This document shows, piece after piece, positions 8,348 through 17,210 of a stretch of 20,050 bases of DNA. The stretch is from positions 1 through 20,050 of the IMG/VR virus record IMGVR_UViG_3300008448_000883. One strand, 5' to 3'. Both the position numbers and the translations under genes were made by a program. Numbering within the stretch: position 1 is the first letter of the stretch; each line of letters begins with the position of its first letter. The DNA comes from a virus. The notes under the pieces were generated by a model. It had not been told where the DNA came from and made no database searches. It saw only the letters and a program-made list of their open reading frames with translations.

Positions 8348-9748
8348 TTACATTGGGGTTAAAAGATTTGTGAGTGACACAAAATTCACTGACGGGATGC
8401 CGCCGGCAGATGACAGTGTCGATATAGAAGAAAACGTATGGGACAGCGAGGACATTGTGCCCGTCGCACCGCCGCCGCCAATTGATACGGCAGAATATGT
8501 AAAAGGCGTGTAAGTCCCGATCAAAGATCCATCAGTTGGGGCTTTAAATATTACAGGCCTATCTGCATTACTCATTGGGATATAAAAATTATTCCCATAA
8601 GCATAAGACCTGCTGCCGCCGCCAGTTGGCGTATAAACGCCACCCAATGCCGACAACGATCTTGCAAAAAAAATTGATCCGCCGGTTGTGTATTTGATAA
8701 ATAAAATGGTATCGCTTGATGTGTTGCAGGATACGTTAACACTTCCACCAGAACTGCTGATTCCGGTAATTACATAAGGTATTAACTGTGACCAATCAAT
8801 AGAAAGGCCAGAAGTAAATTTGCACAAAAACCCTTGGGTTTCGCCGTTAACAGGAAGAGCAGTTGCGCTTAAATAAACACTTCCAAAATCATCAAGCGCA
8901 ATGCTTTTTACTGAGTAATCGATATAAAAATCTTCGTTTATATATCCACTGCCTAGTTCGCTGCCGTCAAAACCCATTTTTAAAATCAGTGGATTGTAAT
9001 AATAACTGTAAGTGCCACCTACATAAACGGCAGCGGGGGTGTTGTTAACACAAACACAAGCAAAACTAACAAACTCACCCGGTGTTGTGGATTTGTATCC
9101 ATTCTTAAAAGAAAGGCCTCCTGCGCTGGTGCATTTAACAACCAAGCCATAATATTCGTCATCATCTGTGTCAAAACCAACCCCTGCGCCGTAAACACTG
9201 CCAGCCGAATCAATGGCAATTGAATTTAAACTAACCAAATGATCGCCGGGAATATAAAAATCCGTTTGCCACAAACCCTGCCCCAAAGAATTGAATCGTG
9301 CTAAAAATCCAATCGGGGTGGATCCGGCGTAATAATTGCCAGACACAACAACATCATTGTTGTTCATTGAGTCAACAACAACGCCAGTCAAAACAAAAGA
9401 TGAGTCAGGGAACTGAACTGCCCACTCCAAAGAGCCGGAAGAATTTTGTTTTACCAAAATTCCTGCATTTGATCCTGTGCCTGAATTTTCGATTATTCCG
9501 TAAATATTTCCACTGGAATCAACCGCAACTCCACTGTATGCACCTGAAGAAGATCCAGTGCCGCCAGTGATGGTAGAAAACCAATTTGATGGCTTGCCGT
9601 ATCCATCACTCAGGGAAATGGTTCCGCTTAGAACTTCAAAAAGTGAGCGGACATTTGCATCGTTCAGGGACACGACCCCAGTCGATGATTGACTCAACTC
9701 CACGTTTACATCTTGCATGGAGATAGTTCCGGATGAGGGCAGAGTCAT
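8348..9748 (-). CDS. Propeller fibre protein 2 (SBBP-type seven-bladed), probable receptor binding
   Basis: 466 aa. Residues 1-56 are the attachment domain: MTLPSSGTISMQDVNVELSQ, VSLNDANVRSLF, GTISLSDGYGK, a header common on phage tail and appendage proteins. Seven imperfect repeats follow, each with a IAxDxxGxxYxxG strand pair and a closing KFxSxGxxxW strand (examples VAVDSSGNIYGI, IAIDSAGSVYGAG, IALDDFGSVYLS). This is the pattern of the SBBP beta-propeller repeat. The C-terminus (TPFTYSAVS, then SSISTLSSAGGIPSV) resembles that of its neighbour. It is the downstream member of a tandem paralogous pair, 2 bases after the other gene. No Shine-Dalgarno is seen before its ATG (CTGTATAAAA), unlike the upstream copy, so it may be translated mainly by coupling and in lower amount. 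Host surface binding is inferred from architecture. Confidence 0.65.
   Translation of the reverse strand: MTLPSSGTISMQDVNVELSQSSTGVVSLNDANVRSLFEVLSGTISLSDGYGKPSNWFSTITGGTGSSSGAYSGVAVDSSGNIYGIIENSGTGSNAGILVKQNSSGSLEWAVQFPDSSFVLTGVVVDSMNNNDVVVSGNYYAGSTPIGFLARFNSLGQGLWQTDFYIPGDHLVSLNSIAIDSAGSVYGAGVGFDTDDDEYYGLVVKCTSAGGLSFKNGYKSTTPGEFVSFACVCVNNTPAAVYVGGTYSYYYNPLILKMGFDGSELGSGYINEDFYIDYSVKSIALDDFGSVYLSATALPVNGETQGFLCKFTSGLSIDWSQLIPYVITGISSSGGSVNVSCNTSSDTILFIKYTTGGSIFFARSLSALGGVYTPTGGGSRSYAYGNNFYIPMSNADRPVIFKAPTDGSLIGTYTPFTYSAVSIGGGGATGTMSSLSHTFSSISTLSSAGGIPSVNFVSLTNLLTPM
9696..9724 (-). repeat. 29-bp direct repeat, copy in propeller gene 2
   Basis: Identical over 29 bases to 11087-11115. It lies in the attachment-domain coding part (ISMQDVNVELS region), where the two genes are most alike. 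Confidence 0.95.
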
Positions 9749-9750
9749 TT

Positions 9751-11139
9751 TTATACAGAAATCAAATTGTTTGTAATTCCAAGATTAGAAACAGTTACAG
9801 AAGAAGTGCCTCCGACAAGAGATGAAGTCAAAAAATTATAAAAAGAAAACGCAACAGTAAACGCGCTCACACTATCCGGATATGACGTTGAAGAATATGT
9901 AAACGGGGAATAAACCCCAGTTTTTGTCCCGTCTAATGGCAATTTTGCTAAAAATGCATCGTAAATGATAGATGTGAATGGCTGCGGTGTTTTGCCAAAT
10001 ACATAAAAATCTGACCCAAATCCAGCGCCCAATCTTCCATTCCAGTCAACAGAAGCGGTTGCAATATTTCTTTGTAAAATTAAATTCCCGGAAAGATCGT
10101 ATTTTGAAATCAATAATTCATCTGGCACGGGAGAGCCGGTAACATAAATGTATCCGTTAAAAATATTTATAGAACCGACTGGGACATCTGTTTTTTGCCA
10201 TTGCATTGTCCCACTGGAATTAAATTTACAAAAAAGCCCGCTGGGGCCGGGATATACTGTCGGTGCAAGAATGTAAACATTTCCGGATGAGTCAAAGTCA
10301 ATGGAGTTAAGTGCATTTGTATCAGGCTCAACTTCCACCAATCTTTGAAGCAAAACACCGCCAGAAGAATTTAAAATCAAAAACAAAACCTTTGGAAACT
10401 CAAGAACTGTGTCTATATACTGACTGCCAGATACATAAATGTTTCCAGTTGATTGATCGATTTTTATGTTTTTGAAATAATGATAAAAATATGTGCTTGT
10501 TGTTGAGTATTCTTTTTGCCACTGCAAAGTTCCGGATGAATTGTATTTGACCAAAATGCCCAAAACATTTCCAGTGTACCCAGTTTCGTAAGAGTATCCG
10601 GCTACATAAACATCGTCTGATGCATCAATTGCAACACCGTTAAACCCAGCGTCATCACTTGGGCTATCAAGTGTTTTTTGCCAAACAATTGATCCGGAAG
10701 AATTAAATTTCAATAAAATTGCCGATGTAATGCTTGTGAAATAAGAGCCGGCAACATAAATGTTTCCGATGGAATCTGTTGCAATTGAATCGATATATAC
10801 TGCGTCATCAAATAACTTTGCCCATTGCAGACTGCCAGCAGCGTTGTGTTTTGTAATTGCGCTCGCCGTGATTGTATAAATAACAGAATAAAGATTTCCG
10901 TTTTGGTCTACGGCGATAGATGTTGCATACGTTTCAACAGAAGCGCCCAAATTTAAATAAGCCATCCAGTTGTTAATTGATGGCTTCCCGTACCCGTCAC
11001 TCAAAGAAATCGTTCCACTTGGAACTTGAAACAAAGACCGGACATTAACGTCATTAAGCGCAATCTCATTTGTTGGAGACTGGCTTAACTCCACGTTTAC
11101 ATCTTGCATGGAGATCGGGCCTGAAACCGGGAGGGTCAT
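9751..11139 (-). CDS. Propeller fibre protein 1 (SBBP-type seven-bladed), probable receptor binding
   Basis: 462 aa. It shares the attachment domain with its neighbour (MTLPVSGPISMQDVNVELSQ, IALNDVNVRSLFQVPSGTIS, LSDGYGKPS). Seven blades run from about residue 57 to 408: SIAVDQNGNLYSV, SIATDSIGNIYVAGSY, VAIDASDDVYVAGYS, IKIDQSTGNIYVSGSQ, IDFDSSGNVYILA, FNGYIYVTGSP and GSDFYVFGKT, each closed by a strand such as KFNSSGSIVWQK or KYNSSGTLQWQK. The C-terminal 54 residues (VYSPFTYSSTS onward) are a separate module with a counterpart in the other copy. The ATG overlaps the stop of the S74 fibre gene as ATGA and has a strong GGAGG four bases upstream. Propeller strands are AT-richer than neighbouring genes and use more AAA/AAT codons, a hint of separate origin. 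Receptor binding is inferred. Confidence 0.7.
   Translation of the reverse strand: MTLPVSGPISMQDVNVELSQSPTNEIALNDVNVRSLFQVPSGTISLSDGYGKPSINNWMAYLNLGASVETYATSIAVDQNGNLYSVIYTITASAITKHNAAGSLQWAKLFDDAVYIDSIATDSIGNIYVAGSYFTSITSAILLKFNSSGSIVWQKTLDSPSDDAGFNGVAIDASDDVYVAGYSYETGYTGNVLGILVKYNSSGTLQWQKEYSTTSTYFYHYFKNIKIDQSTGNIYVSGSQYIDTVLEFPKVLFLILNSSGGVLLQRLVEVEPDTNALNSIDFDSSGNVYILAPTVYPGPSGLFCKFNSSGTMQWQKTDVPVGSINIFNGYIYVTGSPVPDELLISKYDLSGNLILQRNIATASVDWNGRLGAGFGSDFYVFGKTPQPFTSIIYDAFLAKLPLDGTKTGVYSPFTYSSTSYPDSVSAFTVAFSFYNFLTSSLVGGTSSVTVSNLGITNNLISV
11087..11115 (-). repeat. 29-bp direct repeat, copy in propeller gene 1
   Basis: Partner of 9696-9724, about 1.39 kb away in the same orientation. Recombination between the two would delete or swap one propeller unit in frame. 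Confidence 0.95.
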
Positions 11140-11864
11140 TTCGCCTCCAGTTTCTCAATACGGTCAGACAACTCCTTGATTGCCTCGACCAGCAGACCAA
11201 CCATGTTGCCGTATGCAAGCGCCAAATGCTCGCCTTGCACAACCGCTTCGGGCAGCACCTTCTCGACGTCCTGCGCCACAAGGCCCGTCTGACGCTCGCC
11301 GGTATCTGTGCGCGTGTAGGTGTACCCGGTCAGACTCTCAACCTTTGCGAGAGCGTCCGGGATTTGTTGAAGATTTGTTTTGAGCCTAATGTCAGAGTAG
11401 GCGGTGACATTGCCCCCGGCAATCAAATCACCCGCAAGAGACAGTGCGCCAGCGTAGTCAAACTGGAAAGAAACGTTTGTGGCATCGTTGTACAGAATAG
11501 CCGTCTTGCCACTGGGGATGGTCACCCCAGTGCCAACAGAGATAACCCGAATACTCTGACCGCCAGTCGTAGAGTTCTTGACGATGTAGGTCTTGTTGAT
11601 TGCCGGGACAATCAGGTCTCTTGTGGCAGAAAGACTGACACTGGACGTAGCCTCCAAAAACAAAGCCCGCGCATCCTGCGCCGCATTTGTATTAGTGAAG
11701 TTCAGCGTCTTGTTGGCGTCTGTTGAAAAGTTTACGGTTGCCTTTCCAACAATGGCCTGCTCAATCGTTGTGCCAAGATTGGTGTTGGTTGTGGTTCCCC
11801 AAGTGCCAACTTGTTCGCCAAGGCCGATCAGTTCGATTTTGAGGCCGGAGTATGTGGATGCCAT
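11136..11864 (-). CDS. Tail fibre/appendage with C-terminal S74 intramolecular chaperone
   Basis: 242 aa. Residues 1-150 form the fibre part (MASTYSGLKIELIGLGEQVG, TWGTTTNTNLGTTIEQAIVG), with a beta-rich stretch YNDATNVSFQFDYAGALSLA and GGNVTAYSD. Residues 157-242 are a peptidase S74 chaperone: SDIRLKTN gives the nucleophile Ser157 and Lys162 five residues later, the spacing of the Ser-Lys pair in endosialidase-type domains. GLVAQDVEKVLPEAV follows, then YGNMVGLLVEAIKELSDRIE, a trimerising coiled coil. The domain helps the fibre trimer fold and then cuts itself off before Ser157. The fibre part is short, so most of the mature protein is an adaptor-like head. Only a weak GGA lies before the ATG. 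The gene sits directly between the repeat fibre and the propeller pair, in the host-recognition cassette. Confidence 0.85.
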   Translation of the reverse strand: MASTYSGLKIELIGLGEQVGTWGTTTNTNLGTTIEQAIVGKATVNFSTDANKTLNFTNTNAAQDARALFLEATSSVSLSATRDLIVPAINKTYIVKNSTTGGQSIRVISVGTGVTIPSGKTAILYNDATNVSFQFDYAGALSLAGDLIAGGNVTAYSDIRLKTNLQQIPDALAKVESLTGYTYTRTDTGERQTGLVAQDVEKVLPEAVVQGEHLALAYGNMVGLLVEAIKELSDRIEKLEAK

Positions 11865-11893: not shown

Positions 11894-13435
11894 TCAGTTG
11901 GTGTTTATTGGAACCCAGACAACTGATTGGCCGTCATTGATGACTTGCCATGTCACTGATTGACCATCATTGATAACCTGCCACGTTACCGATTGACCAG
12001 TGTTTACACCCTGCCATGTTACCGACTGGCTGTCGTTGACCCCAGACCAAATGACGGTCTGAGAATCATTGATCACTTCCCATCTAAGCCTGACACTTAT
12101 TGAGTCAGATCCTGTGGCGCTCTGCTCTGATACCACAAAAAACAACGCAGATGCAGAGTTTATTTCACTTGCAACGGCGGAGTCAGAAACCTCAACAAGC
12201 ACACTCAAGTTGCTCAAGGCAACGTCAGTTCCCGAAGCGGCTTCTAAAATTACCCCGACGTAGACCGGGCTTCCAGCCAGTGCATCAGACGCCGAAGATG
12301 ACTCAGATACGCTGCCGTCAAAAACCTTGATAGCCGCAATCGTTTCGGAAACAGAGTTGGACTCTGTGATCGTTACGATAAAACTTGCGCTTGCCTCCGG
12401 GGCATCGATTGCCGATGACTGCTCCGAGACTTGGCCGAAATAACTTGCCAGACTCAAGACTTCGTCTGTAATACCCCCCGACTCCAGAATGCTTGGAGCG
12501 TATTCCAGTGATGCATCGTTCTGATCAGAGCCAGACGCCGTTTCGGCAACACTGGCAAAAATAAGTACGGTGACTATCTCCGCAATTATTTCGTCAGAAG
12601 CCGAGCCGGTCTCAAGGACGACCGCAAAAAAAGTAACCGATGCCGCGCTTTGATCGGAAATGCTTGCCGTGTCCGAAACGGCAACTGCAAAATTAACTGC
12701 GGAAAAATTTTGGTCAGAGGCGCTCGCCGTGTCCGCAATGGAAGCGCCAAAAACAACCGCCGCTAAAGTTTGATCGGCAGCGGAACCGGACTCTTGTACG
12801 CTTGCAGAGGCACTGAGCGAAGCGTTTAAACTGTCAGAGCCTGAAGCACTTTCGGAAACTTCTCCAGAAAGCGCAAAAACACTAAAAATCTGGTCTGACC
12901 CGGATGCGCTATCAGAAATAACGCCAGAAAAACTGAGTCCACCAATTACCTCGTCAGCGCCGGACGCCGTGTCCGAAACATCGCTTGCAAAACTTGCGGC
13001 AGCAAAAGGCGCATCAGAAACGGATGCGCTTTCAGAGGCTACGCTGGCAAAATTAGCGACACTGGAGGCCTCGTCTGATATGGAGGCGCTGTCCGAAATA
13101 ACGCCAGAAAAAACTGGCGAAGCGGAGGTTTCGTCGGTGCCAGAAGCGTTATCCGATACCGAATTGTCAAAACTTAACCCAGCAGATACCTGATCAGAGC
13201 CAGAAGCAGTTTCGGATGTTTCACTGCTGATATCTTGGGATGCCGATGTTTGGTCGGAGCCAGAGGAACCCTCTGAAACGCTGACCAAAAATACGGCATT
13301 AGATGAAACCGAATCCGACCCTGTGGCAGTCTCAGCGACACTGCTTTCGAGCGCCGTTGCCGGTTCGATACGAAGCCATGAGACCTCGACAGTCTCGACT
13401 GCTGCGCCACCCTTGAAGAACAGCAGTAATGACAT
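11894..13435 (-). CDS. Tandem-repeat fibre protein (20-residue repeats plus C-terminal Trp repeats)
   Basis: 513 aa. Residues 1-30 are unique (MSLLLFFKGGAAVETVEVSW). Residues 31-450 are about 21 copies of a 20-residue acidic Ser/Ala repeat with consensus xVSDSASGSDQxSAxxxFxx. Residues 452-513 are five copies of an 11-residue repeat W-x-x-V/I-N-D-x-Q-S-V-T and a short tail VPINTN. There are no Cys residues and few Lys/Arg in the repeat region, as expected for a long, thin, strongly negative beta-structured shaft with the Trp repeats as tip. No enzymatic motif and no S74 domain are present in this protein; the neighbouring gene carries one. It starts at ATG 13435, with only GAG nearby as ribosome site, 13 bases after a 49-aa ORF. 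A fibre shaft or a flexible surface decoy are both possible; the first is favoured by its neighbours. Confidence 0.65.
   Translation of the reverse strand: MSLLLFFKGGAAVETVEVSWLRIEPATALESSVAETATGSDSVSSNAVFLVSVSEGSSGSDQTSASQDISSETSETASGSDQVSAGLSFDNSVSDNASGTDETSASPVFSGVISDSASISDEASSVANFASVASESASVSDAPFAAASFASDVSDTASGADEVIGGLSFSGVISDSASGSDQIFSVFALSGEVSESASGSDSLNASLSASASVQESGSAADQTLAAVVFGASIADTASASDQNFSAVNFAVAVSDTASISDQSAASVTFFAVVLETGSASDEIIAEIVTVLIFASVAETASGSDQNDASLEYAPSILESGGITDEVLSLASYFGQVSEQSSAIDAPEASASFIVTITESNSVSETIAAIKVFDGSVSESSSASDALAGSPVYVGVILEAASGTDVALSNLSVLVEVSDSAVASEINSASALFFVVSEQSATGSDSISVRLRWEVINDSQTVIWSGVNDSQSVTWQGVNTGQSVTWQVINDGQSVTWQVINDGQSVVWVPINTN
11897..12082 (-). repeat. Five 33-bp (11-residue) Trp repeats
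   Basis: Units begin at each Trp: WEVINDSQTVI, WSGVNDSQSVT, WQGVNTGQSVT, WQVINDGQSVT, WQVINDGQSVV, then a terminal WVPINTN. The last two full units are nearly identical in protein and very similar in DNA, while the first ones have drifted, so expansion has been more recent at the C-terminal end. Confidence 0.95.
12086..13345 (-). repeat. About 21 copies of a 60-bp (20-residue) coding repeat
   Basis: The anchor S-(D/E)-(S/T)-A-S-G-S-D-(Q/E) returns every 20 residues with one exception, a unit lengthened by three residues (IAEIVTVLIFA). Good matches include ISDSASISDE, VSDTASGADE, ISDSASGSDQ and VAETASGSDQ. Copies differ at many synonymous and replacement positions, so the array is old and not being homogenised. 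Confidence 0.95.
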
Positions 13436-15569: not shown

Positions 15570-16400
15570 CTACCCCTGAGCGTACTGAACAGTAATTGCG
15601 CCGCCGTCTACCGCTCCGTTCGTTGCCGGGATTGATACGTTTTGAGGAACGCTATTGTTCCAAAGTTGAGGCATTGCAAGTGTCAGCGCGTCATCAACGC
15701 TGTAGTTTGAAGCAGCAGATGCGTTGTTAATCATTGCAATCGGTCGATACGCAACCAGATGGATTGCCCCAGTCGATACCGCGACGGAAAAAGTAATTGA
15801 CTGAACCGAACGAACACCCTTGTCCCCTGTGTCAAGCCCAATCGGAAACACATGGCCTTGTGGAGCGGCAGTCCTAAAAGACATAAGAAGTGAGCCAGTT
15901 CGTCCAGCAGTGCCCGCGCTGTTGGTGTAATCAACAGTAACGGCTGGCAATCCCGCGCCCAGTTGAGAACTAACCTCAAGCCACAAGTAGACACCCTCTC
16001 CATTGGTGGATTGGTTTAAGTCTCGCGCCGGGAAGGTAACCGAGTTGACTGTCTGTGCCGTAGTAACCGTTAAATCAATCCCGGAGTTATGCCAAAGCCG
16101 GTCAACGATCATCAAAGTCCGCTGTGAGGCATTGACTGTGGTTGCCAAAAATGCCCGACGAAGCCCCGCGAGGTAGGTATTACCGCTTACCGGATTTGTA
16201 AAAGGAATTTGCCCTTCATAACTTGTAAGAGCCGCACCCGATAAACCGGGAGAGGGGGTGGCTGCTGCTGGCGGGTATCCAGCCGCATAAAAAGAAGTGA
16301 GCCAGTAATTTTGACTATCTGTTTGATTGGCTGAAGTCTTGGCGAAAATACCCGCTGGAACAAGCCCCGCTTCAACTCCTGCAAGTGTGGTGATCGCCAT
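15570..16400 (-). CDS. Virion structural protein, paralogue B of a tandem pair
   Basis: 276 aa. It shares with the gene before it a start MAITTL.GV, a segment YAAGYPPAAATPSPGLSG, GQIPFTNPVSGNTYLA, a signature VDRLWHNSG (about residues 99-107), QTVNSVTFPARD, TNGEGV, FPIGLDTGDKGVRSVQSITF and IHLVAYR. Between these blocks the copies differ, mostly in loops, as in surface subunits. Gly/Thr/Ser-rich strands suggest a beta-sandwich. It lies 3 bases after its paralogue with AGGG seven bases before the ATG. The arrangement suggests two subunits of one ring or two alternatives of one position on the particle. I recognise the family pattern (VDRLWHNSG, GVRSVQSIT) from phage structural gene clusters but no function is established to my knowledge. 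Confidence 0.55.
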   Translation of the reverse strand: MAITTLAGVEAGLVPAGIFAKTSANQTDSQNYWLTSFYAAGYPPAAATPSPGLSGAALTSYEGQIPFTNPVSGNTYLAGLRRAFLATTVNASQRTLMIVDRLWHNSGIDLTVTTAQTVNSVTFPARDLNQSTNGEGVYLWLEVSSQLGAGLPAVTVDYTNSAGTAGRTGSLLMSFRTAAPQGHVFPIGLDTGDKGVRSVQSITFSVAVSTGAIHLVAYRPIAMINNASAASNYSVDDALTLAMPQLWNNSVPQNVSIPATNGAVDGGAITVQYAQG

Positions 16401-16403
16401 GCC

Positions 16404-17210
16404 TTAGCCCTGCGTCACAGTCATCGAACCCTGCAAAGATGACGTTGGGGTTGTACTGGGGACAAAGATCAGAAACGGCACGGTGTTGTTAAACATCTGA
16501 GGCATCCCCCCCGTTACCGCATCAATCGCCGTAGAAATGCCCCCCGCCCCCAACTGAATTACCGACAGAACCCGGTAAGCAACCAAATGGATTGTGCCGC
16601 TTGTCCAAGTGGCGCTAAGCGTAATGGACTGAACCGAACGAACCCCCTTGTCCCCCGCTTGCAGACCAATGGGGTAAAAAGTGCCGATTGGAGATGTGGC
16701 ACTTGTGGCAATGATGTTCGTGCCAGTCCTAGAGCCAGTGTTATCGCTGTTTGTGTAGGTCACGGTAATCGTTGGGGTGCCAGCGCCGGTGGCAGTAGAC
16801 ACATCAACCCCAAGCAACACCCCCTCGCCATTAGTCGTTCCGTTTTCGTCTCTAGCAGGATAGGCCACTGAGTTAACGGTCTGCGATGCAGTTGAAGTGA
16901 TGGTGATTCCGCTGTTATGCCACAGACGATCAACCAACATTATCTGACCCGACTGACCAGACGAAAGGCCCACGAAGCGGGCGAGATACGAAGTACCACT
17001 CCCCGGGTTACTAAACGGGATCTGCCCTGCGTAAGTAGTAAGCGCCTCGCCCGCCAGCCCCGGAGTTGGTGCAACGGCAGCGCCGGGAATACCTGCTGCG
17101 TAAAACGGCGTGTAGGGTCTGCCTGCAACCAACGTACCCGACAACGCCTTAAAAAAGAACTTAGGCGTTTGGCACCCTGCAATAACACCGTCAAGGGTTG
17201 TGATCGCCAT
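16404..17210 (-). CDS. Virion structural protein, paralogue A of a tandem pair
   Basis: 268 aa. Marker blocks: FFYAAG-like PFYAAGIPGAAVAPTPGLAG, GQIPFSNPGSGTSYLARFVG, MLVDRLWHNSG (91-101), SQTVNSVAYPARDENGTTNG, TYTNSDNTGSRTGT, FYPIGLQAGDKGVRSVQSIT, GTIHLVAYR and a C-terminal SLQGSMTVTQG. It differs from paralogue B chiefly at the N-terminus (CQTPKFFFKALSGTLVAGRP) and in the segment after PARD. The ATG follows the preceding TAA directly (TAAATG), with GGAGG eight bases upstream, a stronger site than that of paralogue B. No signal peptide or enzyme motif is seen. Confidence 0.55.
   Translation of the reverse strand: MAITTLDGVIAGCQTPKFFFKALSGTLVAGRPYTPFYAAGIPGAAVAPTPGLAGEALTTYAGQIPFSNPGSGTSYLARFVGLSSGQSGQIMLVDRLWHNSGITITSTASQTVNSVAYPARDENGTTNGEGVLLGVDVSTATGAGTPTITVTYTNSDNTGSRTGTNIIATSATSPIGTFYPIGLQAGDKGVRSVQSITLSATWTSGTIHLVAYRVLSVIQLGAGGISTAIDAVTGGMPQMFNNTVPFLIFVPSTTPTSSLQGSMTVTQG

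Follow-up and report, generated by a model that had tools for sequence, protein, structure and literature searches.

Gene order and the tandem adhesin-like genes

The window, that is, the whole stretch of DNA that was analysed (20,050 bases), consists of one whole IMG/VR record and is probably a fragment of the genome of an uncultured phage. All window genes discussed here are carried on the minus strand, including the two adhesin-like genes PROP1 and PROP2 and a tail-fibre gene ending in a Peptidase_S74 chaperone (S74 fibre gene). In the direction of transcription the order is as follows: the gene of a 513-aa repeat protein, the S74 fibre gene, PROP2, PROP1, holin, endolysin, and virion structural genes. 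The S74 fibre gene (11136-11864, minus strand) was recognised by its C-terminal chaperone (PF13884, E=6e-16) and by a match to the phrog long tail fibre distal subunit (E=1e-42). It shares a 4-bp overlap with the start of PROP2, which thus lies immediately downstream. Promoters and terminators were scanned for between 7900 and 12000: promoter-like sites were rarer than in shuffled sequences, and terminators were found without clear excess.

The 513-aa protein (11894-13435) is composed of about a dozen Ser/Ala-rich repeats (e.g., VSDSASGSD), followed at its end by short INDGQSVTWQV repeats; the syntenic counterpart in a related phage (L013) is laid out in the same way with different repeat wording. 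A further tandem pair of paralogues, 51% identical over 261 positions and without Pfam or PHROG match, is located at 15570-16400 and 16404-17210.

PROP2 (9751-11139, minus strand) encodes 462 aa, arranged as an N-terminal module of 54 codons (10978-11139), a linker, a beta-propeller part (residues 70-383; 9991-10932), and a tail. In the AlphaFold model (mean pLDDT 77.6) the propeller strands extend from residue 70 to about 383, and the tail is of low confidence from about residue 400 onwards. PROP1 (8348-9748, minus strand; 466 aa) is the tandem paralogue, assigned from its similarity to PROP2 and from its SBBP repeats, and carries the corresponding 54-codon module at 9587-9748. The SBBP repeats scored 50.1 bits in PROP2 (E=2.7e-13) and 20.8 bits in PROP1 (E=3.6e-4), relative to a Pfam cut-off of 20.5. 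When the PROP2 propeller was submitted to Foldseek, many solved propellers were matched, both propeller lectins and enzymes, including sugar-binding lectins from Photorhabdus. The polyglycine GP38 tip domain (PF05268) was not found in either protein by Pfam search. The repeat family and the propeller fold are shared with the Leptospira LipL53 family (NF047494) and with the Leptospira phage protein AGS80660; the latter, however, is without the module, and the window proteins score far below the cut-off of the former.

Over their alignment (440 positions, 188 bits), PROP1 and PROP2 are 34% identical. The modules share 44 of 54 residues (81%), with 77% identity of the DNA over 142 nt, so that "near-identical", the term used for the attachment domain in a preliminary description of this DNA, is too strong. 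The strong divergence of the propellers that was reported there is borne out: from residue 55 to residue 462 the proteins are only 28% identical. Because this part nevertheless aligns over its full length, PROP1 and PROP2 are full-length paralogues of some age, and not one anchor joined to two unrelated propellers.

The N-terminal module, a probable anchor, and its family

The starts of PROP1 and PROP2 matched the profile of phrog_26817 (E=7.1e-10 over positions 1-90 and E=1.7e-8 over positions 1-54, respectively) and a custom HMM of the module (E=4e-26 and 2e-25); the PROP2 module was delimited additionally with the aid of the family alignment and the helices of the AlphaFold model. As the matches of PROP1 and PROP2 both cover at least positions 1-54, phrog_26817 corresponds to the module itself. 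That family is without assigned function, to which the present analysis adds a gene context and a probable role.

Viral contigs were searched with module consensus sequences: 63 phage records and, in a first scan, 210 IMG/VR contigs carry the module, as against only 2 loci in 84,980 bacterial and archaeal genomes. Most distinct modules (77/85) start behind a closely spaced open reading frame, commonly overlapping it by 1-4 bp or separated from it by 1-12 bp. As in the window, the upstream gene ends in Peptidase_S74 in 27 of 58 cases tested, and tail fibre families account for most of the PHROGs matched by upstream genes. In Vibrio phage EniLVp02 and Pseudomonas phage Milchi, the module gene is annotated behind a gene for a long-tail-fibre distal subunit, and in Vibrio phage vB_VmeM-32 it is found a short way downstream of one; in Rhizobium phage RHph_Y68 it follows an S74 gene and is annotated as a putative tail fibre adhesin. 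The C-terminal tips are diverse: among 78 module proteins, Gly_rich_2 was found in 17, the GP38 adhesin in 9, and the SBBP propeller in 3, together with single cases of FG-GAP, BNR, laminin G, and fn3 tips. Since GP38, polyglycine, propeller, and lectin tips are all borne by the same module, it probably serves as an anchor for exchangeable adhesins on fibre tips, and looks like a tail-fibre socket into which evolution plugs new tips. The module is not described in those parts of the tentaclin paper (PMC10743442) and of the LSH1 paper (PMC13243795) that were available.

Tips are replaced cleanly at the end of the module in relatives. The DNA of two collinear phages (L127 and L172) shows 82% identity as far as base +152 of the module gene, the module end, where similarity is lost, to be resumed at +524, just past the gene; the module DNA is 92% identical, and the tips give no BLASTP match at E<=10. 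For L136 and L140 the module is the sole DNA similarity (86% over 160 nt), for L111 and L158 the similarity at the module locus is almost confined to the module, and L117 (GP38 tip) and L145 (Gly_rich_2 tip) retain 90% identity of the module DNA. These comparisons establish that module-anchored tip replacement is real in the family. Copy number in related phages, a check that had been proposed in the preliminary description, varies together with the tips: in L013-L015, three phages related to that of the window, the slot is occupied by a single module gene, which bears another tip, and no module gene was detected in a further relative (L010).

Two further observations were made in these relatives. 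Between the module gene and the holin, L013-L015 carry a gene for a 232-aa protein (L013:7373-8068), which by eye is sulfotransferase-like (RHPVNRFISGYKHK motif). In L010, the closest other relative of the window phage, a protein that by eye is methyltransferase-like is encoded among the tail genes (L010:309-1742).

In the AlphaFold model of PROP2 the module forms short helices at residues 11-17, 31-37, and 46-49, with block means of pLDDT of 83-93 over residues 1-50. An internal repeat, SGPISLS/SGTISLS, was detected at an offset of 35 (score 7.7 vs. a 99.9% quantile of 4.7 for shuffled sequences); only the first and third motifs are significant, the middle copy (offset 17) not being significant alone. 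The module was not linked to any solved fibre-binding domain by sequence or structure searches: its profile gave only weak matches to unrelated proteins in the PDB, and no match was returned by Foldseek for the module model alone.

Among the closest known systems are the Gp38 adhesins of T2/S16-type phages (GP38, PF05268; Gp38_N, PF21721), the genes of which also lie directly downstream of a distal fibre gene and in which a short attachment domain at the N-terminus likewise precedes a variable tip that binds the receptor. A GP38-type tip is moreover present on some module proteins, and three short N-terminal helices, predicted in the module, are seen in the solved S16 gp38 tip (6F45, PMC6851490). 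In that protein the trimeric fibre offers three equivalent pockets, each of which receives a tryptophan from one of the three helices (PMC6851490); a three-point docking of the module in a similar manner is attractive, but as an analogy only. The systems differ in that the fibre upstream of module genes often ends in an S74 chaperone, that the tips in the window are propellers, and that the window gene is duplicated; the module also has neither a detectable sequence relation to Gp38_N nor its conserved tryptophans. The layout of PROP1 and PROP2 is that of two fibre-tip adhesins with a common anchor, akin to adhesins in the gp38 position.

A relation of the module to Gp38_N was looked for by profile comparison and gained no support: hhalign against 8 Gp38_N sequences gave a probability of 0.5%, and comparison with S16 gp38 did not favour a relation either, although three helices and, by eye, a somewhat similar C-terminal end are common to both. 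PF21721 was absent among the families with E<0.001 in 78/78 module proteins, whereas S16 gp38 does match it.

The 29-bp block and tracts shared by tandem copies

The sequence AACTCCACGTTTACATCTTGCATGGAGAT occurs at 9696-9724 in PROP1 and at 11087-11115 in PROP2 (both minus strand), as an exact match in direct orientation, 1391 nt apart, so the exact repeat of the preliminary description was recovered as given. In both genes it starts at codon 9 and runs through codon 17 into codon 18, most of which it includes. It exceeds every other exact repeat in the window in length; 60 first-order Markov sequences with matching composition gave maxima of 12-18 nt. Part of this excess is due to coding constraint, because the block encodes ISMQDVNVE(L), which is common to both proteins. 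Outside the block, 23 of 34 conserved non-Met codons of the module differ synonymously and 11 are the same, and at the block edges nearly all of the adjacent conserved residues have different codons.

Two calculations were performed with the coding constraint taken into account. In a simulation with fixed amino acids and the codon usage of this phage, a run of at least 29 nt was obtained with P = 0.0006-0.0014 (median run of simulated pairs: 11 nt), and a permutation of conserved codons, calibrated on between-phage pairs (P<0.05 in 27/545), gave P = 0.0016-0.0033 for PROP1 and PROP2; as it was the repeat that drew attention to the pair, the values are post hoc and suggestive for the window alone.

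Tandem copies were compared in an enlarged sample of 223 loci with 236 modules, in which only 9 distinct tandem sets are present. Exact tracts of at least 24 nt were found in 3 of 11 tandem pairs, which are not mutually independent, and in 7 of 2287 divergence-matched between-phage pairs (Fisher P=1e-5). With the window pair omitted, the result was 2 of 10 tandem pairs (P=6e-4). The statistic rests on few events, since the tandem sets number 9 and tracts of at least 24 nt occur in three phages only. The tandem sets other than that of the window contain independent tracts of 24, 33, and 44 nt. Two of these belong to Vibrio phage 1.081.O, the best case, where a 44-nt tract is shared by two copies and a 33-nt tract, elsewhere, by another two. 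The long tracts of these sets lie at codons 1-7, 10-20, 32-46, 41-48, and 47-53, which suggests that short conversion tracts arise at arbitrary places of the module in tandem copies. The excess of tracts in tandem pairs, together with the variation in their positions, gives the 29-bp block the look of a short conversion tract rather than that of a dedicated switch site, and it is probably one such tract.

In Vibrio phage 1.081.O (L177:5001-9473) there are three module genes, with mosaic exact tracts between copies; two of the module genes are separated by other genes, one of which encodes a COG0603 protein.

Possible tip exchange in this phage and alternative explanations

The reading that we consider likely, with a fair margin for doubt, is that of tandem fibre-tip adhesins on a module docked to the S74 fibre, with tips that diverge or are replaced and with the block as a conversion tract. 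PROP2 and PROP1 would then be fibre-tip adhesins that arose by tandem duplication. Through its 54-residue module, one adhesin is probably docked on the end of the trimeric fibre encoded by the S74 gene at 11136-11864, and the beta-propeller would be the exposed receptor-binding tip. Tips may diverge freely or be replaced; the module would be held by selection, because it must fit the fibre. Homologous recombination would act at the module, because this is the only conserved stretch: between phages it would swap the tip at the 3' end of the module, and between tandem copies short conversion tracts would remain, the 29-bp block probably being among them. Shared complexes with several or interchangeable receptor-binding parts on conserved anchors are described, in the available text, for the tail spikes of Ackermannviridae (PMC11414711), and receptor-binding parts exchanged by homologous recombination for Pectobacterium tailocin fibres (PMC13195805); these belong to other protein families and are likened here by description only.

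A broader proposal is put forward tentatively, with slightly less than even confidence: the module may be a previously unrecognised, widespread fibre-tip adaptor that stands in for Gp38_N without detectable homology to it, with three helix-cap motifs spaced by about 17 residues (ISM..., IAL..., ISL...), possibly one for each fibre chain, with propeller, lectin, or polyglycine tips, and with tandem copies that swap short tracts by gene conversion. If this is true, the module is a sequence tag for host-recognition genes in many uncultured phages with tips that lack similarity to known adhesins; very different binding folds at one fibre end would be accounted for, and the natural tandem sets would permit recombination between receptor-binding genes to be measured.

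The identity of the block could also be a coincidence, nine conserved residues having chanced to keep their codons after an ancient duplication. This is unlikely, yet it is the strongest of the alternatives: the block residues are conserved anyway, the synonymous sites elsewhere in the module look saturated, the P values (about 0.001-0.003) are post hoc, and 6 of the 2287 between-phage pairs reach 27 nt or more. It is opposed by the short median run of the simulated pairs and by the independent tracts in other tandem sets. Retention in both genes of an element acting at the nucleotide level (RNA structure, regulator, or site-specific recombination site) would fit the identity of all synonymous sites over nine consecutive codons and the sharp edges, but is very improbable. 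A degenerate pattern of the block was matched in contigs of this same phage only, and no recombinase gene was recognised in family searches of part of the open reading frames of the window; such a site was rejected because the tract positions vary between tandem sets.

In the preliminary description the layout was regarded as that expected for the recombinational exchange or loss of receptor-binding modules, with a possible switch of host range. The attachment module and the C-terminal swaps in other phages agree with the general layout; a conserved or dedicated role of the block as crossover site is not supported, since other tandem sets have their tracts at different places of the module and the degenerate pattern of the block is confined to contigs of this phage. 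A block that is actively used for frequent deletion or exchange of propeller genes, so that host range is switched in the living population, is improbable, more so than coincidence and less so than a nucleotide-level element. Such use would draw on the direct repeats at the same codon, as a crossover would remove 1391 bp while a single adhesin gene stayed intact and in frame, and on the tip replacement that is real in relatives. On the other hand, the repeat, at 29 bp, is short, and the module DNA on its flanks reaches only about 77% identity. Two other contigs of this phage were available: IMGVR_UViG_3300042691_006191 matches the window without a difference over 13.6 kb around PROP1 and PROP2, with both copies kept in the parental arrangement, and IMGVR_UViG_3300032116_011579 is identical until it ends inside the PROP2 module. 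No recombinant junctions at the block were seen in the two contigs, which have parental flanks only; as the contigs are few and nearly identical, this absence is weak evidence. A host-range switch in this phage is a possibility, unproven.

Over 15 kb, the window and IMGVR_UViG_3300042691_006191 show five differences, all of which fall within 39 bp (646-684), near the 3' end of the gene at 622-1536.
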